A stretch of DNA of 64,000 nt, from positions 1-64,000 of the forward strand of contig CAIJLZ010000006.1 of NCBI GenBank assembly GCA_903821605.1, written 5' to 3'. The stretch comes from an uncultured Sphingomonadales bacterium (GTDB lineage Bacteria > Pseudomonadota > Alphaproteobacteria > Sphingomonadales > Sphingomonadaceae). The notes under the pieces are model-generated. The model made no database searches. It was not told the DNA's origin and was given only the letters and a program-made list of their open reading frames with translations. The stretch's first letter is position 1; each line of letters begins with the position of its first letter. A program made the translations under genes and the position numbers. Positions 2,458 to 12,358 of this stretch are shown here, piece after piece.

Positions 2458-2543
2458 GATTTTCGGTAACAGCCAAATCGCATTTCTAACTGCTGCTTAC
2501 AACGCAAACGGAACCTACTCGTTCACCAGTTTTACCATTCGAC

Positions 2544-2753
2544 CCCAAATTTCGCCATGCACGGGTCGAGATCGCTGCCTGGTTCGAGGATTACAACCGG
2601 GAGAGGCCGCACTCGTCACTTGGCTAAGCAACCCCGGCGGCGTTCGTCGCCGAACTGGATAAGCAATGGCCTGCTTCGCTAAGCCCTACGGGCTCCGCTA
2701 CGCAGCCCATTGCTTCAACCGCGCTGATGCGCAAAACAACCGCCCGGCTCTAA
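2544..2753 (+). pseudogene. IS3-family transposase, C-terminal remnant
   Basis: The frame through 2556 reads EIAAWFEDYNRERPHSSLG, the hallmark end of the IS3-family (rve) integrase core. A TAA stop at 2625-2627 replaces the usual Tyr codon, after which the same frame continues TPAAFVAELDKQWP to a natural stop at 2751-2753. Only the last ~65 codons remain and one is nonsense, so it is dead. The catalytic DDE part is absent. Confidence 0.85.
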
Positions 2754-2785
2754 TCCCCGCTAGCGGAAAGCTGGGGGTCACGTCA
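2754..2785 (+). mobile_element. Probable right terminus of the IS3 remnant
   Basis: The sequence after the transposase stop ends GCTGGGGGTCACGTCA, resembling IS3-group terminal repeats that begin TGACGTGACCCCC when read inward. No matching left end remains nearby. The thioesterase stop codon (2783-2785) lies inside this end, so the insertion may have set that gene's C-terminus. Confidence 0.5.
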
Positions 2786-3337
2786 GTCTAACCCGCGGCG
2801 CGGTGGAATTCCTATGGCCTGCCTGGCCCCGTGGGGCTTAGGGTGGTGAGCGTAAGCCTCGGCCATTCGGTTCAGCCGCGCCAGAACTTCATCGGGGAAC
2901 GGTGCAGAGCGGCGGGTCGTCATGTCGACATGGAGAGACATGTATTCACCGAAAGCCACGCGGCAAGGCGGGGTTCCGTCGCCCGCACTGACCCACAGCT
3001 CATGGATGTGGTGGATACGCTTGGCATCGTGGGCATAAAGCCAGCAGCGAACCTCGATCTGATCGCCCAGCATCAACTCGTTCTCGAAGCTTATCCGAAA
3101 TTCGCGCTGAAAGATAGAAAAAGCCCGCTTCTCGATGTAGTCCGCTTCCATGAGAAACTCACGAAAGAATGGCCATGTCGCGTCGTGGAACAGTTGTGGA
3201 TAGATCAGCGAATTCATATGACCGTTGGCGTCGATCCATTCGGGTAATACCTTGCCACGCCAGCCGATGAACGGAACAGTAAATGCGCCCCCAATAGTTT
3301 CTCTCATATGTCTGCCAAACTCCCTTTCATGGTCCAT
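2783..3337 (-). CDS. Hotdog-fold acyl-CoA thioesterase
   Basis: A 184-aa protein with the 4HBT signature Asp-x3-His-x-Asn at D36, H40 and N42 (DANGHMNSLIY), followed by a GDQIEVRCWLYAHDAKRIHH strand, as in thioesterases of the carnitine/4-hydroxybenzoyl-CoA type. It likely hydrolyses a CoA thioester in the cytoplasm. It is the last gene of the minus-strand unit after the Rieske oxygenase and SDR. An alternative start at 3307 has a good AAAGGGAG ribosome site. The C-terminal RRGLD abuts the IS end and may be altered. Confidence 0.78.
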   Translation of the reverse strand: MDHEREFGRHMRETIGGAFTVPFIGWRGKVLPEWIDANGHMNSLIYPQLFHDATWPFFREFLMEADYIEKRAFSIFQREFRISFENELMLGDQIEVRCWLYAHDAKRIHHIHELWVSAGDGTPPCRVAFGEYMSLHVDMTTRRSAPFPDEVLARLNRMAEAYAHHPKPHGARQAIGIPPRRGLD

Positions 3338-3397
3338 CCGAACTTCCGAAAGACGTAGATTAAAAGCAATTGAGGCGCTGGAATGCGCAAGATTTCA

Positions 3398-4240
3398 TCA
3401 AAACACGCGCAATCCGTCCAAGGTGTGGATTTCCGCGTCGAGCTGCCGCAGCAGTGGAAGGCTTCGAACCACATTGCCACTAAGTTCGTTCGCCGGACGG
3501 TGGCACAACTGAAGTGCCGCCTCCGCCATGGCTTCGATAGGTTCGAGATGATCACGCTCATCCCAGTTGCCGACGGAAAGAGCGCCCTCGCTGGCAACCG
3601 CGCCGACAGGTGCAAGGGAATTCACTGCAATCCTCTCCCGCGACAATTCCACCGCCCAACCTGCCGTCAGACGGTCAAGCGCCGCTTTTGAAGTGCCGTA
3701 GAGGGTGGCATGGCTGTCACGGTTAAAATTGACGTAGCGATCGTTCTCATCCCACGGTGCAGCGGGCGGAGCATCTGCCGTTGCACTTGAGATGTTAAGA
3801 ATCCAGCCTTCGCCCAGTTTGCGCATGTGTGGCAGTGCCTGTTGCGACAGTTCCTGCGGGGCAAAGAGATTCATCTGGAACGCAAGTTGAACCTGACGCG
3901 GCTCCGCCTCCCAAATCGGTATGAAGCGCGACCAGGCGGCGTTGTTCACTAAGATATCGAGCTTGCCAAAATGGGCGACAGTTTCCGTAACGATCCGCGC
4001 CCGATCGACAGGGTCTGCCAGATCAGACTGGATCATCAGGCACTGCCCCCCCGCTGTGCGGATCGTATCGGCAGTTTCTTTCAGTGAGCCGGAAAGGCGT
4101 CCTCCCGGCTCTGCCGTGCGGGCGACGATAGCCACTTTGGCACCTTCTGCGGCAAATCGGCGGGCAATAGCTGCCCCGATGCCCCGGCTGGCCCCTGTAA
4201 CAATAGCAACGCGCCCTGCTAGAAGATTGGATAAGCTCAT
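3398..4240 (-). CDS. SDR-family oxidoreductase
   Basis: A 280-aa short-chain dehydrogenase: NAD(P)-binding TGASRGIG at residues 15-22, NNA at 99-101, a Ser at about 151 and the catalytic YGTSK (Y181, K185). It probably oxidises a hydroxyl or reduces a keto group on the cluster's substrate. It lies 41 bases after the Rieske gene and 60 bases before the thioesterase, same strand, so co-transcribed. The tail beyond residue 230 is longer than the minimal ~250-aa SDR. Substrate not predictable. Confidence 0.85.
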   Translation of the reverse strand: MSLSNLLAGRVAIVTGASRGIGAAIARRFAAEGAKVAIVARTAEPGGRLSGSLKETADTIRTAGGQCLMIQSDLADPVDRARIVTETVAHFGKLDILVNNAAWSRFIPIWEAEPRQVQLAFQMNLFAPQELSQQALPHMRKLGEGWILNISSATADAPPAAPWDENDRYVNFNRDSHATLYGTSKAALDRLTAGWAVELSRERIAVNSLAPVGAVASEGALSVGNWDERDHLEPIEAMAEAALQLCHRPANELSGNVVRSLPLLRQLDAEIHTLDGLRVF

Positions 4241-4281
4241 AACCTCGCCACACGCCTCTTATCTATCTATCAATTACGTAA

Positions 4282-5394
4282 TCAGGCCGCCCCTTGTGCC
4301 GGAGGTGTGGTGGCGCCCTTCCACTCGGCGTAGAACTGGTAGTACCAGCGCCTCAGCTCGCCGATCGGACCGTCGCCCTCGCAGATTAGGGCTTGCTCCA
4401 CGAAGCGCTGACGATCCCAGATCACCTTGTCTTGGTCGAACTGCTTCAGAATGTCCTTAATCAGGGCCTTCGCAAGATTGCCGAGCGGGCCATTTGCCTG
4501 GTCTTTAGGCTGGGTGAAGGCAAAGCGGACACGCAGCTTGTTGTTCTCCACCGGGGTCATGCCGACCACCAGCAGCGTTTCCGAGATGCCGGCAAAGCGG
4601 CTGAACGTCTGGCCGGGGCCATTGTTGCCATTGGTGATCGTGCCGTCCACCTGACCCCGCGGCGTGCCAAGTTTTGCTTCGACCAGGCCGGTGCGGCGGT
4701 GCCCTTCGTAGGCGATCCGGGCGTCAGGATAGGTGGCGGTGCCGTGAACATACTTGAAATGAGCAAGGTCCGCCGCATTTTCTGCCAGGAACTGGAGCGG
4801 AGCTTCCACGATCCAATCGTAGCGGTCGAAAGCCGTCCAGTCGGGATCGGTCGCTTCTGGATAGTGATCCAGGTCCCACGCAGGGGCGGCATCCTCGGGG
4901 TGATACCAGAACCACACGAAGTTGTTCGCTTCCTGCACGTGCCACGTGCGGGTGCACTTGCGCTTGACCTGCGGTGGGATCGCCTTGGAGTATGGGATGT
5001 CCTTCACCACGCCTTCTTCGCCGTCATAGCGCCAGGCGTGGAACGGACATTCCAGCAGATTGCCGCTTACCTTACCGCCATGGCCCATGTGTGCGCCAAG
5101 GTGCTTGCAGTAAGCGTCCATGATCCGCACTTTGCCGTCCTCGCCACGCCAGATCGCAAGATCGCGCGCGAAATAACGTAATGGCTTCACTTCGCCCACA
5201 GCGATTTCATCTGAATAGCAGACCACGAACCAGCCGAAGGGGAAGGGTAGGCGATCCAGGCCGCGCTCTTCAGGGGCGGGCTGATTTTCAACCGGAGCGG
5301 TGCGCCATTGCTTAAGCTCGTCGCCCTTCATCGCATCGAGAATCTGCCACACGGCGACAGGCGGCGTACGACCATCATGCACGGCTTCGGACAT
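4282..5394 (-). CDS. Rieske non-heme iron oxygenase, alpha subunit
   Basis: A 370-aa oxygenase. The Rieske [2Fe-2S] ligands are C96-x-H98 and C116-x2-H119 (CKHLGAHMGH ... CPFHAW). The mononuclear iron site is D209-x2-H212-x4-H217 (DLAHFKYVH). The 'PFGWF' entry and FKYVHGTA motif resemble the single-component KshA/Neverland-like group acting on bulky hydrophobic rings, but substrate assignment is inference. No ferredoxin or reductase is in the island, so electrons must come from elsewhere. The start at 5394 is chosen for its AAGGGG ribosome site; longer in-frame reading would run through the operator. First gene of a Rieske-SDR-thioesterase unit. Confidence 0.88.
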   Translation of the reverse strand: MSEAVHDGRTPPVAVWQILDAMKGDELKQWRTAPVENQPAPEERGLDRLPFPFGWFVVCYSDEIAVGEVKPLRYFARDLAIWRGEDGKVRIMDAYCKHLGAHMGHGGKVSGNLLECPFHAWRYDGEEGVVKDIPYSKAIPPQVKRKCTRTWHVQEANNFVWFWYHPEDAAPAWDLDHYPEATDPDWTAFDRYDWIVEAPLQFLAENAADLAHFKYVHGTATYPDARIAYEGHRRTGLVEAKLGTPRGQVDGTITNGNNGPGQTFSRFAGISETLLVVGMTPVENNKLRVRFAFTQPKDQANGPLGNLAKALIKDILKQFDQDKVIWDRQRFVEQALICEGDGPIGELRRWYYQFYAEWKGATTPPAQGAA

Positions 5395-5442
5395 TGCTTC
5401 TACCCCTTCTGCAAACTCGGCTAATCCCCGAGTCACGACGTA

Positions 5443-5472
5443 ATTGTCGAGAACTGCTGTCGCAGGTGGCAC
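5443..5472 (-). promoter_or_regulatory. Promoter of the Rieske unit
   Basis: On the minus strand, GTGCCA (5472-5467) and GACAAT (5448-5443) are separated by 18 bases. The homologous promoter at 9842-9871 has TTGCCA and GATTAT at the same spacing, which supports both calls. The operator touches the -35. Confidence 0.5.
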
Positions 5473-5496
5473 AATCGTAGACTTGAGTCTACGATT
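5473..5496 (-). promoter_or_regulatory. TetR-type operator, perfect 24-bp palindrome
   Basis: Half-site AATCGTAGACT, a two-base centre, then its exact reverse complement. It sits directly upstream of the -35 of the Rieske promoter and 8 bases after the tetR stop. Size and symmetry fit a TetR-family dimer. A partly degenerate copy is found at 9871-9895. Confidence 0.75.
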
Positions 5497-5504
5497 TTTA
5501 GCTT

Positions 5505-6083
5505 TCATGCTTCGATGGAGAGGCCTGTGCAAATCAGGTTAGCGGCCGACGCCAGTTGGATAGCGATGGGATAGTCCTTATTTATCCGCCATTTATGGAT
5601 GATAACCAGATACGTTCCGAGCAGGATTTCCCCCAATGTCTCAGCATCTTTGCGCTGCTCAGGACCAGCGGCGAGACTGGTGAAGGCAAGGTGCAAACGA
5701 AGCATGCGTTCCTCACCTGGCAACTCATTCCAGCCTTGCTCCAGAATCGCAACAATTGGCTTTAACACTCCCTCACGGGATTGTAGATGCCCGCCATTCT
5801 CAGCAAAGAAGCCTGTAATCCGCTTAATAACAGATCGCTCGCTCGCGGCGTACTTTTCGATTTCCTGCAACAAATCGGCGTCCATCAGTTCGACGATAGT
5901 CGTTACAATTGTGTTTTTGTTGGGAAAGTGTTTGAAGAGAGTTGCGCGCGCGATGCCTGCTTGTTCGGCAATACGGTCCATCGTGGTGTCGGCAATGCCA
6001 GTTGAAGCAAAGCTTTCCATAGCAGCGCGGACGATAGCCCCACGGATGCGCAATCGATTTTTCTCTCGTACTGACAGTGTCAT
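5505..6083 (-). CDS. TetR-family transcriptional regulator
   Basis: A 192-aa protein with an N-terminal helix-turn-helix (MDRIAEQAGIARATLFKHF, about residues 34-53) and a helical ligand-binding C-terminal domain. It is encoded between the two catabolic units on the same strand and directly upstream of the palindrome at 5473-5496, so it is the likely repressor of both units, released by a pathway intermediate (inference). No good Shine-Dalgarno precedes the ATG. A direct repeat GATTTCGGA occurs at 6156-6164 and 6170-6178 in its upstream region. Confidence 0.85.
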   Translation of the reverse strand: MTLSVREKNRLRIRGAIVRAAMESFASTGIADTTMDRIAEQAGIARATLFKHFPNKNTIVTTIVELMDADLLQEIEKYAASERSVIKRITGFFAENGGHLQSREGVLKPIVAILEQGWNELPGEERMLRLHLAFTSLAAGPEQRKDAETLGEILLGTYLVIIHKWRINKDYPIAIQLASAANLICTGLSIEA

Positions 6084-6182
6084 AGTTTTTAAGGACTACA
6101 CAAAAAATTAAGAGATTCATATCAACGCTATCAATTAGAGACGTGCGTGCGCGTTGATTTCGGATTTGAGATTTCGGACAAG

Positions 6183-6974
6183 TTAGCGACCCTTCCAGTT
6201 AGGTCGCCGCTTCTCCAGAAATGCCCGTGGTCCTTCGGACGCGTCTTCGCTTTCGCTCACGAGACTACTCAGTTCATTCGATAGCGAACGCAGGTCGTTC
6301 ACCGAGAGGTCATATGCCTGACGAGCAATCGAAAGACTGGCCGTGACGGACAGAGGCGCGTTGGCAGCGATATTATCCGCCAGGGCGCGGGCGGTGGCGA
6401 GCAATTGTCTCGCGTCCACGATGCGGTTTACAAGGCCGAAAGCCTCTGCTCGCTTGGCATTCAGCGGCTCGCCCGTTGCAAGGAGTTCTAGCGCAATCGC
6501 ACGTGGCAAGGCCCGCGGCAGCCGGAAAGCCCCCCCTGCGCCAGCAAGAATTCCCCGTTTGACCTCGGGCAAACCGAAGTAGGAACCAGGCGTGGTTAAG
6601 ATCATGTCACAGGCGAGCGCGATTTCAAATGCGCCGCCAACGGCAGGCCCGTCCACGGCTGCGATCCAGGGCTTTTCGCGCTTGGCATCGATAAAGCCCG
6701 CAAAACCACCGTCCGCGGTCATGAGGCTGCGTCCTCCGGTTCGGGCAATTTCGGCCAGGTCCGCGCCGGCGCTAAAAATGCCCGCAGTCGACGATGCGAG
6801 AATCGCCACTCGGATGTCCCGGTCCTGCTCGACCTGAGTGACGGCCCAACCCAGCGCCTCGGCCATCGCGGCACTGATCGCATTGCGCTTTTCGGGCCGA
6901 TTGAACTGTAAGACTGCAACGTGGTCGGACACATCGAACAGGACTTCGTGCCCAATTGCAGGAGGCTGTGTCAC
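6183..6974 (-). CDS. Enoyl-CoA hydratase/isomerase family protein
   Basis: A 263-aa crotonase. The oxyanion-hole motif SAGAD is at 68-72 and GPAVGGAFE at 109-117. Both glutamates that activate water in true hydratases are present at E117 and E137 (GLPEVKRGILAGAGG). It probably hydrates an enoyl-CoA made from the acid activated by the preceding ligase; a hydratase-lyase of the feruloyl-CoA type is also possible. Its ATG overlaps the ligase stop (ATGA), showing translational coupling. Confidence 0.87.
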   Translation of the reverse strand: MTQPPAIGHEVLFDVSDHVAVLQFNRPEKRNAISAAMAEALGWAVTQVEQDRDIRVAILASSTAGIFSAGADLAEIARTGGRSLMTADGGFAGFIDAKREKPWIAAVDGPAVGGAFEIALACDMILTTPGSYFGLPEVKRGILAGAGGAFRLPRALPRAIALELLATGEPLNAKRAEAFGLVNRIVDARQLLATARALADNIAANAPLSVTASLSIARQAYDLSVNDLRSLSNELSSLVSESEDASEGPRAFLEKRRPNWKGR

Positions 6975-8680
6975 GCTGGTTCTCCAGAAGGTCTGGACCG
7001 CGCCAGTTCGCGTGCGCGTAGTGCCCGCTTGTCAATTTTGCCTAGCCCATTGCGGGGCAGCGGCTGCTGCTCGAAAACTATTTCGGATGGCACCTTATAG
7101 CTGGCGATATGATCGCCGACATGTACCTTGATCTGGGCCTCAGACGGCTCACATCCCGGTTGCGTTATCACCAGCGCGACGAGCCGCTCTCCAAGGCGAT
7201 CGTCGGGCATGCCGATGGCTGCGGCCTCGACGATGTCAGGGTGTTGGTTCAATACGCGCTCGACCTCGGCACAATAGATGTTCTCGCCGCTCGAGATTAC
7301 CATGTCAGTCTTGCGGTCCACGATAGTGATGTAGCTGTCGGCGTCGATACTGCCGATGTCTCCGGTACGAAGCCAGCCTTCGGCATCGAGCGCCTTGCCT
7401 CCGCTTGCCGGTTGCCCCCAATAGCCCGCCATGACCATGGGGCCGCGCACCCATATTTCGCCAGTCTCGCCGATCGCCTGATCTTCGCCTGCGTCGTTTA
7501 CGATCCGGATTTCAGCGAGCGGATGGACCCTGCCCGACGCTTCAGGACGCACGCTGTATTCAGCGCCCATGGCCATGCTGATCGCTCCGCACGTCTCGGT
7601 CATGCCATACCCGCCGCCGACGATTGCGCGCGGAAATGCGGCCTTCACCGCCTTGAGCAAGTTGGGTGGTGTTGCCTGTCCCCCAAAACCGAGCGACTGC
7701 AAGGACGACATATCGCGACGTTCGCGCTCCTGATTGTGTATCAGGTCGCGTAGGGCAGTTGGCGGCCCACTGAACGCATTGATCTGCTCCGCCTCGACCA
7801 GACGCAACGCTTCCCCAGCGTCCCATCGGGGTATGATGACGATCTTTCCGCCGCGCGCCAGCGTCGAGAGGAAAATGGCATGGAGGCCGCTGACGTGGAA
7901 CAGCGGCACCACTAGCAATGACGTGTATTGCGGGTATTGCGTGGTGCCTCCACCGGCTTCGAGTTTGTGATCACGCATTAGCCTGTGCAGATATTCAGCC
8001 GCCACATGCTGCGACATGAGTAGCGATGTCAGGACGGCGCGATGCGTCAGGATCGTTCCCTTGGGGCGTCCAGTCGTTCCGGAGGTAAACAGGATGCACG
8101 CCGGCGCGTCGGGATCTTCCATCCGGACCGGCACGAGGGCATCGGAGTTCCCGTGAAGCGCGGACCGAAAGCCTTGACTGTCCGATTCGACGATGATGCC
8201 TGTAAATCCGGCTTCGCGAAGCAGCTTGGCCCGACGTTCGTCGGCCACCACCAGTGCACTGTCGATGTCTTCGATGCAGAATCGCATCTCATCGCCCGTG
8301 CCACGGCTGTTGATAAGCGCCGGTATCGCGCCAAGCGAAGAGGCGGCAATGAAAGCCTGCATCCACTCGGCACTATTGCGCATGGCGATCGACACCCGAT
8401 CGCCCGCGCGAATGCCGAAGTCCTGATGCATCTGCGTTGCCATCGCCCCGGCCAGAGCGCGCATTTCCGCGTACGTGACACGGCGATCGCCCTCCACGAC
8501 AAAGTCGTTGTCCGCATGGCTGGCCATGGCCTCGAAAAGCGACGCGATCGTGCCGGTCGCGCGCGCGAAGACTTTCATCGGCACGCCGCGAACCTCCACC
8601 CGGGTGATCTCGAAAGGCGCTCCGGCGCCAGTGAGATCATCGCCGGCTTCAGCCGAGGTCAAAGGGTTCTGCAGGTGCAT
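6971..8680 (-). CDS. Acyl-CoA ligase, AMP-binding
   Basis: A 569-aa ANL-superfamily enzyme: P-loop ILFTSGTTGRPKG, YGMTETCG, the hinge-region GDIGSIDADSYITIVDRKTD and a C-terminal catalytic Lys in NGLGKIDK. It activates a carboxylic acid to its CoA ester with ATP. The start at 8680 is preceded by GGGAGGAACA; the GTG at 8692 overlaps that ribosome site and is unlikely. It lies 37 bases downstream of the phosphotriesterase-like gene and overlaps the enoyl-CoA hydratase gene, so the three form one unit. The substrate is likely an aromatic or alicyclic acid (inference). Confidence 0.88.
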   Translation of the reverse strand: MHLQNPLTSAEAGDDLTGAGAPFEITRVEVRGVPMKVFARATGTIASLFEAMASHADNDFVVEGDRRVTYAEMRALAGAMATQMHQDFGIRAGDRVSIAMRNSAEWMQAFIAASSLGAIPALINSRGTGDEMRFCIEDIDSALVVADERRAKLLREAGFTGIIVESDSQGFRSALHGNSDALVPVRMEDPDAPACILFTSGTTGRPKGTILTHRAVLTSLLMSQHVAAEYLHRLMRDHKLEAGGGTTQYPQYTSLLVVPLFHVSGLHAIFLSTLARGGKIVIIPRWDAGEALRLVEAEQINAFSGPPTALRDLIHNQERERRDMSSLQSLGFGGQATPPNLLKAVKAAFPRAIVGGGYGMTETCGAISMAMGAEYSVRPEASGRVHPLAEIRIVNDAGEDQAIGETGEIWVRGPMVMAGYWGQPASGGKALDAEGWLRTGDIGSIDADSYITIVDRKTDMVISSGENIYCAEVERVLNQHPDIVEAAAIGMPDDRLGERLVALVITQPGCEPSEAQIKVHVGDHIASYKVPSEIVFEQQPLPRNGLGKIDKRALRARELARSRPSGEPA

Positions 8681-8717
8681 TGTTCCTCCCACAAAGGTCC
8701 GGCCTATAGGTAACCGG

Positions 8718-9689
8718 TTATGCGACGCCTGTGAGCAAGCGCCGCGGGTTCTGATCGAAAATCACATCGAGATCTTCGTCGGTGACGCCCCTCTCGCGCA
8801 GCTTGTCCGAAAACTCGGTGACGACATAGCTCAATGGCCTGTTGCCCGAGAGGAACTCTGCCGGAGTCATGCTCACACCCGGCGGCATCGCGAAAGGGAG
8901 TCGCGGCGATTTGAGGGTGCAGATGCAGTCCTGCGAGAGGCACAGCTGCCGCGTATAGCCGGCGGCAACCAGGGCGGCCACATAGTCAGCGCGCCGGTCG
9001 TCAGGTGCCAGGATGTCGTATCCCACACGATCGATGGCAACGAAAGTCCCGCGGTCCGCCAGCCGCGCGATTTCCTCCCAGCTGGACTGCTCGTCCTGGT
9101 GTCCGATCATGACTCTGGTCAGGTCGGCGCCGTTTTCGGCAAAGATCGCCTGCTGCACCTCGCCATGCCGGCTATGTTCAGTATGGGTGATGATCGCGCA
9201 TTGCGCTTCCCGCTGGGCCATCGCGGCGGCAGTCAGGACCTTGCGTTCGAGGGGAGTGATTTGTGCGCCTGTCGCCGCCTTGATGATGCCGGGGCGGAGA
9301 CCGGTATTGCCCACGCCGTTTTCCAGTTCGTGCAAATAGAGTTCGGCGATCTCCTCCTCGCTCCGCACGCGCCAGTACTGAGGAATTCCGGAGTCCTCGA
9401 AAAACAGGCCGGTGGCGAACACGACACGCACGCCCGACCGTTCGGAAACCTCGGCATAGAGTTCGGGGTCGCGGCCCATTTCGATGGCGCAGGGATCCAC
9501 AATGGTGCCTACGCCGTGAGTCTTCAGCTCCTGCAGCTTATCGACGGCAATCGCGACGATTTCCCGACGGTCCGGCCGACTGTTCGGATCGAGCTCCTCG
9601 CCCGGCAGGCCGATGACGATATGTTCATGGACAAGCGTTCGCCCAAGTTCCTCCGCGGCGATCGGTCCCGTGACGGTCATGACCTGCAT
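8718..9689 (-). CDS. Phosphotriesterase-like hydrolase/lactonase
   Basis: A 323-aa TIM-barrel metalloenzyme with all binuclear-site ligands visible: H21-x-H23 (VHEHI), K137 in IIKAATG (the lysine that is carbamylated in the family), H169 (ITHTE), H197 (IGHQD) and D254 (LSQDC). Members cleave phosphotriesters or, more often, lactones. Beside a CoA ligase, opening a lactone or ester to a free acid is the most reasonable role (inference). The start at 9689 has a GGGAGAGAAG ribosome site; the ATG at 9719 lacks one. It is read from a promoter homologous to that of the Rieske gene. Confidence 0.85.
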   Translation of the reverse strand: MQVMTVTGPIAAEELGRTLVHEHIVIGLPGEELDPNSRPDRREIVAIAVDKLQELKTHGVGTIVDPCAIEMGRDPELYAEVSERSGVRVVFATGLFFEDSGIPQYWRVRSEEEIAELYLHELENGVGNTGLRPGIIKAATGAQITPLERKVLTAAAMAQREAQCAIITHTEHSRHGEVQQAIFAENGADLTRVMIGHQDEQSSWEEIARLADRGTFVAIDRVGYDILAPDDRRADYVAALVAAGYTRQLCLSQDCICTLKSPRLPFAMPPGVSMTPAEFLSGNRPLSYVVTEFSDKLRERGVTDEDLDVIFDQNPRRLLTGVA

Positions 9690-9734
9690 CGTTCTTCTCT
9701 CCCACTGTACCTCAACCATTCAAGGTCCGGTACT

Positions 9735-9794
9735 CTAATGCTGGCATCGCACAGGGACGTGCTGCGTGCGACCATCAAGTAGCGCTTCCGACAT
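9735..9794 (-). pseudogene. 5' remnant of a second Rieske oxygenase gene
   Basis: From an ATG at 9794 the frame reads MSEALLDGRTQHVPVRCQH and stops. The Rieske gene starts MSEAVHDGRTPPVAVW, and the ~100 bases upstream are homologous in both places. The simplest reading is that a duplicated promoter plus gene was deleted after about 12 codons and fused to the phosphotriesterase gene, which now uses its promoter. The 19-codon peptide could still be translated as a leader. Confidence 0.7.
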
Positions 9795-9841
9795 TGCATC
9801 TCCCCTAGGCCCAAATGCCGCCAATCCCGAATCGCCACGTA

Positions 9842-9895
9842 ATAATCTAGAACTGCAGTAGCAGGTGGCAAATTGGCAGACCGAAGTCTACGAAA
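9842..9895 (-). promoter_or_regulatory. Promoter and degenerate operator of the phosphotriesterase unit
   Basis: On the minus strand, TTGCCA (9871-9866), 18 bases, then GATTAT (9847-9842). Just upstream, 9871-9895 retains one intact half-site (TCGTAGACT as read on this strand) and a diverged partner (GTCTGCC). Position relative to the -35 matches the Rieske operator, so the same TetR protein probably binds both, here more weakly. Confidence 0.6.
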
Positions 9896-10117
9896 TCCTC
9901 AGTGTCTGATCTGAAATTTGTCCGTCGTCAGAACATTTGGCGCAGATCGCGGGTAGACATGGCCGAGATCTCTGGAGCTCCCCCGGTTAGAAAGGATTAC
10001 GCGGGGGAGGGCGCTCGGTTTCTTGGCTAACTATATAATTGATCCGAGGCACCTAAATGCCCCTTTTTTAAGCAGGTAGTGACCAAATAGTGAGGGCTGT
10101 GACTCCCGAGGCTGTAG
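9896..10117. other. Intergenic stretch without a recognisable gene
   Basis: No convincing coding frame. It holds an 8-bp stem CTCCCCCG (9978-9985) / CGGGGGAG (10002-10009) without a T run, so it is not a clear terminator. Confidence 0.5.
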
Positions 10118-10186
10118 TTGATCTTCCCCCTTCTGAGTGGTCCAAAATATCTGTTATTTTGGACCACTCAGAAGGGGGAAGATCAA
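10118..10186. repeat. Perfect 32-bp inverted repeat with 5-base centre
   Basis: 10118-10149 and 10155-10186 are exact reverse complements (TTGATCTTCCCCCTTCTGAG at the outer left, GGTCCAAAATA at the inner left) around TCTGT. The length and perfection suggest two insertion-sequence ends left face to face, or a small palindromic element. It lacks a T tract expected of a terminator. The adjoining gene fragment begins right at its edge. Confidence 0.85.
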
Positions 10187-10414
10187 GAGTTGGTGCAGTA
10201 TCACGTTTACGATATCCCCTCGTCGGAAGCGACTTTTGGGCATCGATGGGGGTTACTCGAGCAGGCCGTTCGGGATGCGCCAAAAGAAATGGTCCACTTG
10301 GTCCCAACTTACCAATCGGCAGATCAGGATCACTACGATGCGCTACACGGCGGCTGCCAGCACTGGCCTGGCTGGGATTTTGGGGCCGTCGACCAGCGCG
10401 CCATAATCACCTGA
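10187..10414 (+). pseudogene. Fragment resembling an ATP-dependent DNA ligase
   Basis: The frame continuing out of the palindrome reads ELVQYHVYDIPSSEATFGHR, then LVPTYQSADQDHYDALHGGC. This fits the segment between nucleotidyltransferase motifs III and IV of phage-type ATP ligases (YHVYD..., F-R, lVPT). The adenylation Lys motif and the final EG-MvR/K motifs are missing, so it is an internal piece broken on both sides. Identity is my reading of the pattern and moderately uncertain. 10415-10575 shows nothing recognisable. Confidence 0.4.
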
Positions 10415-10575
10415 CTGGCATTGGCATGCCACGTCAGGCGTGTCGACAGCCCAGCCTTGCCGATACGCCCAGTTTCAATACGCGCGTCCATCGGCGCGCA
10501 GCCAGTCCACATGTCGGCCGGCCTGCTGGACTTAGAACTAGAGCCTCGCTGCAGTGGGCCACATCGCTGGGGCTT

Positions 10576-11733
10576 CTATGCCGCCATCGCCCGGTCCAGC
10601 ACATCGGTAATAGAGTCCGCCGCAATCATGGCCGGCTCTGCGGCAAGGTGGGCGTAGCGCGCCGTGGTCTGCACCTGTGTATGGCCCAGCAATTTCCCGA
10701 TGATGGGCAGCGAGTGTCCGGCCGCGATCGCAGTTGAGGCGAAAGTGTGCCGTAGATCGTGGATGCGGACCTCCGGAATTCCTGCCCGTGCCCGGGCGCG
10801 CTGCCAGAAGGGTTGCAGATCCGTTAAGCGCTGACCTGGTATTATCCCGGTAATGACCCAAGGGTTGCCGGGCAGGCGAGGGGCATTCTCCAACAGCTCA
10901 CAGGCCGGGCGTCCGAGGAACACCTTCTTCGCCCCCGACTTGGAGTCAGGCAGGTTAAGGGTGCGGGCTTCGAGATCCACATAGTCCCAATGCAAGGTTA
11001 TGATCTCGCTCAGGCGGCATCCGGTGTAGATGAGCAGTCGTATCGCGAGGATGGCCGAAGGCATCTCCCGACCTTCCTGCTCAATCTCCCGCAGCACATC
11101 CCCAAGATGCTTGATCTCGTCTAGGGTCAGGAACCGCTCGCGTTTCACCTCGGGGTACTTCTGGATCAAACGGCGCGGGTTGCTCCCATCAGGGCGCAGA
11201 CCCCACAGCTCGGCAAGATTGAACATCTTTGAGATGATCTCGAGGCAGCGATTGGCCTCATAGGGAATGTGCCGCAGGTCATGATGGAATTTGGTGACGT
11301 CGGCACGGGTGATTTCCGTGACCAGCATTTTCCCCAGTTTGGGGAGGATGAATTTGGCGAGGGAGCGCCGGTATCCCTTGGCCGTGCTCTCCTTGACCCG
11401 CAACGAGATATGTTGCAGGTCAAACCGTTCAGCGAGATCCTCGACCAATAGCGCCGTGCGCTTGGCCTCCCGATCGGCTGCGGGGTCTTTGCCATTTCGG
11501 GCATCAGCAAGGATGGCGAGCGCCCGGCTGCGTGCCTGTTCGGTGGTGAGGATGGTGCTGGGGCCGAGCGAGATCCGGCGAGATCGCCGCCCAGCGCGAT
11601 ACTGGACGATGTATTGCCGGCGCCCTGACGGTAGCACCCGCAGGCCAAGGCCCGGGATGTCCTCATCCCAGATGTAATATTCCTTGTCCCTTCGGGCGGC
11701 CGCTTCGACCGCGCGTTTGGTTATCTTGGTCAT
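10576..11733 (-). CDS. Tyrosine recombinase (island integrase)
   Basis: A 385-aa integrase with an N-terminal arm-binding DUF4102-like region (residues 1-60, GLGLRVLPSGRRQYIVQYR), a SAM-like core-binding domain (about 95-185) and a C-terminal catalytic domain. Catalytic residues are R240 (TGCRLSEI), K265, H325-x2-R328 (HDLRHTF), H351 (LLGHT) and Y360. It should integrate and excise the island at tRNA-fMet. The start at 11733 is chosen because the longer in-frame extension is low-complexity and lacks a ribosome site. It appears intact, so the island may still be mobile. Confidence 0.92.
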   Translation of the reverse strand: MTKITKRAVEAAARRDKEYYIWDEDIPGLGLRVLPSGRRQYIVQYRAGRRSRRISLGPSTILTTEQARSRALAILADARNGKDPAADREAKRTALLVEDLAERFDLQHISLRVKESTAKGYRRSLAKFILPKLGKMLVTEITRADVTKFHHDLRHIPYEANRCLEIISKMFNLAELWGLRPDGSNPRRLIQKYPEVKRERFLTLDEIKHLGDVLREIEQEGREMPSAILAIRLLIYTGCRLSEIITLHWDYVDLEARTLNLPDSKSGAKKVFLGRPACELLENAPRLPGNPWVITGIIPGQRLTDLQPFWQRARARAGIPEVRIHDLRHTFASTAIAAGHSLPIIGKLLGHTQVQTTARYAHLAAEPAMIAADSITDVLDRAMAA

Positions 11734-12163
11734 GTCCGTGTCACTTCTGTCGATCGGATTTGTGACCGCGGCTGGCCGGTTGCACCCAGGTGGTTGGCGT
11801 CCCACCTCGATGCGACCGGTCTTGCCTCGGCTGACACAACGGGTGCTGATCAGTGCCTGAGAAGTCAACGAACATATTGAAAAGAAGTAACAAAAGGAAA
11901 ATTGGCGCAATCAAGCGTATGAGGCGAGAGAGCCCAAAGGGTGGCAATGGCCCAGCCCGGGGGTCTTAGCTCGAATCGCTGACTGCATTCCGGCCATCTT
12001 CGCCGAACGGGCCGTAAGCACTGTGGAAGCAAGAGGAGGCAAAAGAGGGCAAATGCCGACGCAATCGTGCGGGGGAGGGGCCTGCTAGACATTCGTCCAT
12101 CTGTCGGTAATGTCGCACTTATGTCGGCTGCATCGCGCTATATCTAAGTCACTGAAAATGCAT
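11734..12163. other. Integrase upstream / attachment region
   Basis: No gene seen. It holds the integrase promoter region and, at 12012-12050, the arm-type repeats. No excisionase-like frame was recognised. Confidence 0.5.
12012..12050 (+). repeat. Direct repeat, possible integrase arm-type sites (right)
   Basis: The first 25 bases are identical to 209-233. The following AGAGGAGGCAAA and AGAGGGCAAA form two tandem variants of one motif. Position between integrase and attR is right for arm-binding sites. Confidence 0.5.
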
Positions 12164-12209
12164 CTCATAACCTGAAGGTCGTAGGTTCAAATCCTACTCC
12201 CGCAACCAA
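12164..12209 (+). repeat. attR: second copy of the tRNA-fMet 3' half
   Basis: A 46-base exact copy of 96-141. The sequence before it cannot form the tRNA 5' half, so it is a displaced attachment site and not a functional tRNA. Confidence 0.9.
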
Positions 12210-12240
12210 CAACACCAAACACCGTCAAACACACCACAAT

Positions 12241-12262
12241 AGCTCCCCAAGGGGAGCTTTTG
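12241..12262 (+). terminator. Original tRNA-fMet terminator displaced by the island
   Basis: Stem AGCTCCCC-AA-GGGGAGCT followed by TTTT, lying at about the same distance from attR as the terminator at 173 lies from attL. Confidence 0.65.
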
Positions 12263-12358
12263 GCGTTTCTAACGCCTGCCAGACAGCGCAGCAGACCAAT
12301 AACGACAAAAACGCCGGCAAGATTGACAATCCTGCTCTGCGCCGTGATCAACAAGGGC

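Follow-up and report, generated by a model that had tools for sequence, protein, structure and literature searches.

A second copy of a Rieske oxygenase 5′ region ahead of a phosphotriesterase-family gene in a sphingomonad: a probable promoter-capturing duplication

How did the beginning of a Rieske oxygenase gene come to stand ahead of a gene for a phosphotriesterase-family (PTE) protein? The question is raised by a minus-strand gene cluster of an uncultured Sphingomonadales bacterium (GCA_903821605.1; genome of 2.67 Mb in 19 contigs), located in the first 64,000 nucleotides of contig CAIJLZ010000006.1, which form the window analyzed here. An earlier, sequence-only reading of this window had proposed promoter capture, in which the PTE unit is driven by a promoter copied, together with a gene stub, from the Rieske gene. 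Growth of catabolic operons probably proceeds by bringing further genes under regulators already in place, and to our knowledge the joints of such gene recruitment are seldom still readable; here the joint is visible, with a truncated gene start, both putative operators, and the tip of an insertion sequence (IS). A second copy of the putative promoter region of the Rieske gene stands before the PTE gene. We think it probable that an old duplicate of the Rieske 5′ end heads a transcript comprising PTE, an acyl-CoA synthetase (ACS), an enoyl-CoA hydratase family protein (ECH), and possibly a TetR-family regulator, and that a promoter-capturing tandem duplication is the likeliest way in which it arrived there.

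Two homologous blocks and a gene stub

The elements that carry this comparison are as follows.

5350..5494, minus strand: original block W_R, from the putative operator to the first codons of the intact Rieske gene (direct repeat and gapped alignment)
9750..9893, minus strand: derived block W_P, with putative operator, candidate promoter, ribosome site, ATG, and first codons (direct repeat and gapped alignment)
9735..9794, minus strand: 19-codon Rieske stub, MSEALLDGRTQHVPVRCQH-stop (alignment and homologue comparison)
4282..5394, minus strand: Rieske oxygenase with KshA_C domain
8718..9689, minus strand: PTE, phosphotriesterase-family and lactonase-like, the first gene 3′ of the stub, likely start at 9689

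Homology between the regions upstream of 5394 and 9794 had been claimed, and it is confirmed. With the Rieske region as query, the gapped local alignment of the two blocks scored 133, whereas the best of 568 other 220-nucleotide (nt) windows of the same sequence, taken from both strands, scored 50; the likeness is thus far above that of random upstream regions, against which the sequence-only reading had wanted its claim measured. The two longest direct repeats in 2500-12300 are 5350-5428/9750-9828 (71% identity) and 5427-5494/9826-9893 (78%), and the blocks of about 145 bp are 74% identical, with differences at 38 of 144 compared positions. Identity amounts to 15/20 in the operator, 21/25 over the candidate -35 and just downstream, 10/15 in the candidate -10 region, 26/40 in the leader, where W_P has a one-base deletion, and 27/36 over the ATG and 12 codons. 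When only the region 5′ of the ATG is aligned, the copies score 85 with each other, and either copy scores 16 to 35 with seven related clusters. The homology begins at the outer palindrome edge (9893/5494), is clear to about codon 12, and continues loosely to codon 17; the gene copy had been described as cut after about 12 codons, followed by stops and the lactonase gene, which holds for the clear part of the homology, but the stub itself has 19 codons. The copies are direct repeats 4.4 kb apart that bracket PTE-ACS-ECH-TetR. The ribosome site and ATG are retained in W_P, and the end of the stub lies 45 bp ahead of the PTE ATG at 9689, which is preceded by a ribosome site belonging to PTE itself (GGGAGAGAAGAACG); this site, together with the agreement with the protein start in a related locus (L018), makes 9689 a likelier PTE start than 9719.

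The truncated 5′ part of the donor Rieske gene is present at the joint, where the stub MSEALLDGRTQHVPVRCQH-stop can be compared with the resident Rieske start MSEAVHDGRTPPVAV... Both carry DGRT, while all 27 other distinct homologues carry DART. These homologues have at least 50% identity, a query start no later than 12, and one representative per distinct first 600 nt; 34 rows, less six shorter stretches of loci already counted and the window itself, leave the 27, some of which are near relatives. DGRT amounts to one residue and appears to be a modest marker of shared origin. As read from the alignment, P12 and A14 are kept by the resident Rieske and by all 27 homologues and are changed in the stub, which therefore looks like a derived, unconstrained copy. 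The stub is thus most likely a derived, relaxed copy of the resident Rieske lineage and not a fragment of a known paralogue; the two nearest Rieske paralogues in the same genome (60% and 58% identical) both have DART. In the intact copy the operator follows TetR, as it does in relatives, which marks this copy as the older one; the same TetR-operator-Rieske pairing is found in G295 (locus L060), with a Rieske protein of 78% identity. Copying from the intact Rieske gene, and an origin of the copy in this Rieske lineage, are thus well supported by sequence comparison.

The distribution of the block was examined in a sample of 397 genomes of the family, one per species and including the present one. 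When the genome was searched with a sequence model built from the two blocks, no others were recognized (third match, E 0.2), and a dispersed repeat family was rejected on this ground; another genome search for repeats was too insensitive to detect even the second copy. In the 396 other genomes, where stricter filters were applied, the model gave nothing above chance (25 of the 397 genomes at E≤0.1, the best outside the present genome being 0.008), and 9690-9900 has no plasmid match. The stub was likewise not seen as a leader peptide in unrelated loci, an outcome that the sequence-only reading had raised against itself, in any of the 396 genomes or in plasmids. PTE at this level of similarity is rare, occurring in 3 of the 397 genomes at E≤1e-60, the present one included. 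Its closest relative, in G061 (77%), is found in one of four genomes of that genus, and the other cluster proteins were not found in 19.5 kb around it; in loci L017 and L018, PTE is 64% identical and located 3′ of a long gene, which we take to be secA. No stub likeness was found upstream of PTE in G061, L017, or L018 (raw scores of 17 to 20, without shuffles), and L019 was left out of this comparison because its sequence ends too near PTE. The target gene therefore stands elsewhere without the copied block in the three relatives examined.

Operators, candidate promoters, and the upstream edge

The regulatory elements within the blocks, and the IS end beside the copy, are listed below.

5475..5494, minus strand: perfect 20-bp palindrome TCGTAGACTCAAGTCTACGA, likely TetR operator, with its core conserved 3′ of TetR in seven clusters
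9874..9893, minus strand: putative second operator, imperfect palindrome TCGTAGACTTCGGTCTGCCA, core 9/10
9842..9871, minus strand: candidate promoter TTGCCA-18-GATTAT, 9/12, by consensus match only
5443..5472, minus strand: its counterpart GTGCCA-18-GACAAT, 8/12, read from the alignment and counted manually, below the scan threshold
9919..9968, no strand assigned: last 50 bp of an IS3-family insertion sequence (about 88% identity), its tip toward the copied block (match to inserted copies)

Twenty TetR-centered loci from other family members, 375 kb in total, were examined for the operator core. The exact core TAGAC-N4-GTCTA is found once each in 7 of the 20 (L060 to L066), with a chance expectation of 0.36 in 375 kb, and is absent from the remaining 13. 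It lies about 30 to 100 bp downstream of TetR, distances being mostly measured from the end of the tblastn match and not from the stop codon, and these seven loci hold the closest TetR proteins (38 to 45%). Because the exact core recurs just downstream of TetR in these loci, the palindrome at 5475-5494 is very likely the operator of the resident TetR, and TetR-operator the old order; with its operator directly downstream of its own gene, the regulator would sit upstream of a promoter that it likely controls. Eight one-mismatch cores were seen in the 20 loci versus about 11 expected by chance; four (L067, L070, L072, and L075) lie 35 to 75 bp downstream of TetR, and the remaining sites, in L074 (one), L076 (two), and L079 (one), are not at that position. 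Loci L060 to L067, L070, L072, and L075 would fit a possible operator rule, T(A/G)GAC-N4-GTC(T/C)A immediately 3′ of the gene for the regulator, and the comparison thus offers a putative operator motif for a sphingomonad TetR group.

The second operator has two mismatches over the 14 specified positions, one mismatch over the 10 positions of the core, and an imperfect dyad. The genome holds three sites at ≤2 mismatches, two of which are the present ones, versus 20 for a reversed control pattern, and a large regulon was rejected accordingly. Positions 9876-9897 have exact matches of 21 to 22 nt in three other family genomes; the one inspected is a coding stretch, presumably lysS, and these matches are taken as chance. 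As for the promoters, the sigma-70-like pair is better in the copy than in the original. The -35, -10, operator, and first codons said to be shared by the two regions are indeed homologous, but the -35/-10 pair is only fair in the copy and poorer in the original, and the second operator is imperfect. W_P may be the working promoter of the PTE unit.

Between the copied block and the IS tip are 25 bp of unrelated sequence. Two plasmid IS copies, one each of Paracoccus and Aminobacter, annotated with an IS3-family transposase, share sequence from exactly base 9919. Since the homology ends at the operator edge and is followed by 25 unrelated bp, the break is not accounted for by a simple deletion next to the IS. 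Farther out, a second IS3-family left end (about 10118-10186, relatives in L129 and L130) forms a perfect 32-nt inverted repeat with a 5-nt loop, as if an inner partial repeat had been turned into a perfect palindrome by template switching; this palindrome was not seen elsewhere in the genome at ≤2 mismatches. A 75-codon open frame on the plus strand (10187-10411) begins at the palindrome, has no Pfam match above cut-off, and resembles the end of an interrupted gene. An integrase gene (10576-11910) follows further along.

Proposed route and rival explanations

In the tandem route, the ancestral order would have been PTE-ACS-ECH-TetR-operator-Rieske. Tandem repetition of a segment with one end shortly before PTE and the other within the Rieske gene would have placed the Rieske start about 50 bp upstream of PTE; the outer copy left by this event would later have disappeared, in a region rich in IS3 ends. 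That the copies bracket PTE-ACS-ECH-TetR as direct repeats is the arrangement that tandem duplication predicts. Transcription would then start from the copy; the 19-codon peptide would be made and terminated, and ribosomes would initiate on PTE separately, at the site that belongs to it. With TetR on both operators, the two units would stay repressed until TetR is released by its ligand, which may be an intermediate of steroid or bile-salt breakdown.

Several observations weigh against this account. At 15/20, the second operator is no more conserved than the block overall, and one-mismatch cores arise by chance, two more being present in the window at 12086 and 41508. The promoter scan gave 6 pairs in 10 kb versus 3.7 (standard deviation, 2.2) in shuffled sequence, not significantly more. 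No TetR remnant was detected 5′ of the copy (score of 27, equalled by 85 of 200 shuffles), and the account gives no reason why the homology stops so sharply at the operator. Neither the pre-duplication order nor a full tandem repeat was found in the 396 family genomes or in plasmids, and the search for a full second Rieske gene of the resident's kind, which the sequence-only reading had proposed, found none in relatives. Because no such relative was seen, the route, whether a tandem duplication, the loss of a second Rieske gene, or the copying of a short stretch, is one that we infer; promoter activity, TetR control of the copy, and the substrate are likewise inferred. Promoter capture stands insofar as PTE is headed by a derived Rieske 5′ region, with putative operator, candidate promoter, ribosome site, and start codon, which its examined relatives lack, while no intermediate of the route was found; the sequence-only interpretation was right in outline, but too strong in calling the locus direct evidence of how two units came under one regulator and in taking the regulation for granted.

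The same homology could also be read as what is left of a second, complete Rieske gene that was recently paralogous to the resident one and had an operator of its own; a deletion would have spared only its first codons and brought PTE in behind its promoter. Such a history would leave a similar joint, and Rieske duplication is common: the genome has the two further close paralogues mentioned above (60% and 58%), and in G184, G326, and G398 a Rieske gene of 31 to 33% identity adjoins one of 60 to 62%. However, linked pairs of the resident's kind were seen in no relative, and the loss of a second gene leaves unexplained why the copies bracket exactly one PTE-to-TetR unit. A remnant of the Rieske 3′ end before PTE was looked for in 9690-9745 and rejected (score of 18, matched by 106 of 300 shuffles). 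We therefore regard this history as unlikely. Slightly less credit goes to a real duplication whose copy has since become a dead relic, with the PTE unit using another promoter, for instance on the IS/integrase side, and TetR inactive at the copy. The operator identity not above that of the block, the -10 region at 10/15, the one-base leader deletion, and the ease with which one-mismatch cores arise by chance would all suit a relic, but the best-kept stretch lies over and just after the candidate -35 (21/25), the promoter pair of the copy outscores that of the original, and the ribosome site and ATG persist.

Selection of the stub as a leader peptide, or coding across the whole shared block, is very improbable. 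The Rieske frame is indeed open 5′ of its ATG (5395-5508), as far as an ATG that shares bases with the stop codon of TetR (ATGA), and agreement at the protein level is 27/44 versus 22.3 expected (P 0.03). Yet the antisense frame is equally good (28/44, P 0.018) and the upstream part alone gives P 0.09, and coding conservation 5′ of the ATG was rejected as a weak signal; third-position GC, 0.39 in the upstream extension versus 0.73 in the Rieske gene, speaks against translation of the extension, the copy carries a frameshift, and the block was not found in any of the 396 other genomes. A chance likeness of two promoters, with a score of 133 facing a best of 50 in 568 windows, has a negligible probability.

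Related systems and the steroid-type cluster

In the Cit+ variant of Escherichia coli, the duplication joint reportedly holds the start of the donor gene. There, a promoter was placed before another gene by duplication (rnk-citT; PMC4718724), and a second source describes the experimental activation of transferred genes through promoter-capturing duplication (PMC11111574); the present locus resembles both in that a putative promoter region is set before another gene. Unlike Cit+, the present case, as judged from sequence, would be natural and old (26% diverged), with the operator carried along and the outer copy gone. The locus looks like a well-kept natural instance of an event whose kind is already known, and is a concrete natural candidate for regulatory capture in environmental steroid-type degradation. 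More tentatively, one duplication may have moved operator, promoter, and translation start together, so that a foreign PTE-CoA ligase-hydratase unit joined a TetR steroid switch in one step; this would make it a natural, aged Cit+-type event in which regulation was captured too, a reading that we hold possible with less than even confidence.

The minus-strand transcription order is PTE, ACS, ECH, TetR, Rieske oxygenase, short-chain dehydrogenase, and thioesterase, the genes not yet listed being the following.

6971..8692, minus strand: ACS, acyl-CoA synthetase, best NCBIfam match steroid-24-oyl-CoA synthetase, below cut-off
6183..6974, minus strand: ECH, enoyl-CoA hydratase family protein
5505..6083, minus strand: TetR-family regulator
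3398..4240, minus strand: short-chain dehydrogenase
2783..3337, minus strand: thioesterase-like protein

ACS scores 437.6 bits against the NCBIfam steroid-24-oyl-CoA synthetase model (cut-off, 750), and the nearest solved structure to the Rieske protein is 3-ketosteroid 9alpha-hydroxylase (E 5e-39). Because the nearest matches of both are steroid enzymes, a role of the cluster in steroid or bile-salt metabolism is likely. Like phosphotriesterase-like lactonases and phosphotriesterases, the PTE protein matches the Pfam PTE family over nearly its whole length; unlike them, it does not reach the curated cut-off of any of the three NCBIfam models that it matches.

Palindromic TetR operators have also been proposed for the bsd I bile-salt cluster of Caenibius tardaugens, where they differ in sequence, and the homologous cluster of Sphingobium sp. 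Chol11 is without TetR, according to that report (PMC12882949). The present cluster further differs from bsd I in its PTE-family hydrolase and in the KshA-type Rieske gene behind TetR. Plasmid clusters of Novosphingobium aromaticivorans (pNL2), Novosphingobium ES2-1, and Sphingobium TomMM15 likewise combine related ACS and Rieske genes (60 to 64%) in one cluster, but they have an amidohydrolase and an amidase where the present cluster has PTE, and the operator core was not found at ≤1 mismatch in the examined stretches. In the literature searched, no paper combined TetR, Sphingomonadaceae, bile salt, and phosphotriesterase. In the same genome, a second steroid-type cluster (L024; contig C4:274000-293999) has no operator core at ≤1 mismatch. 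Its proteins are 75% (short-chain dehydrogenase), 60% and 58% (Rieske), and 43% (ACS) identical to those of the present cluster, the short-chain dehydrogenase being much better conserved than its Rieske partner.
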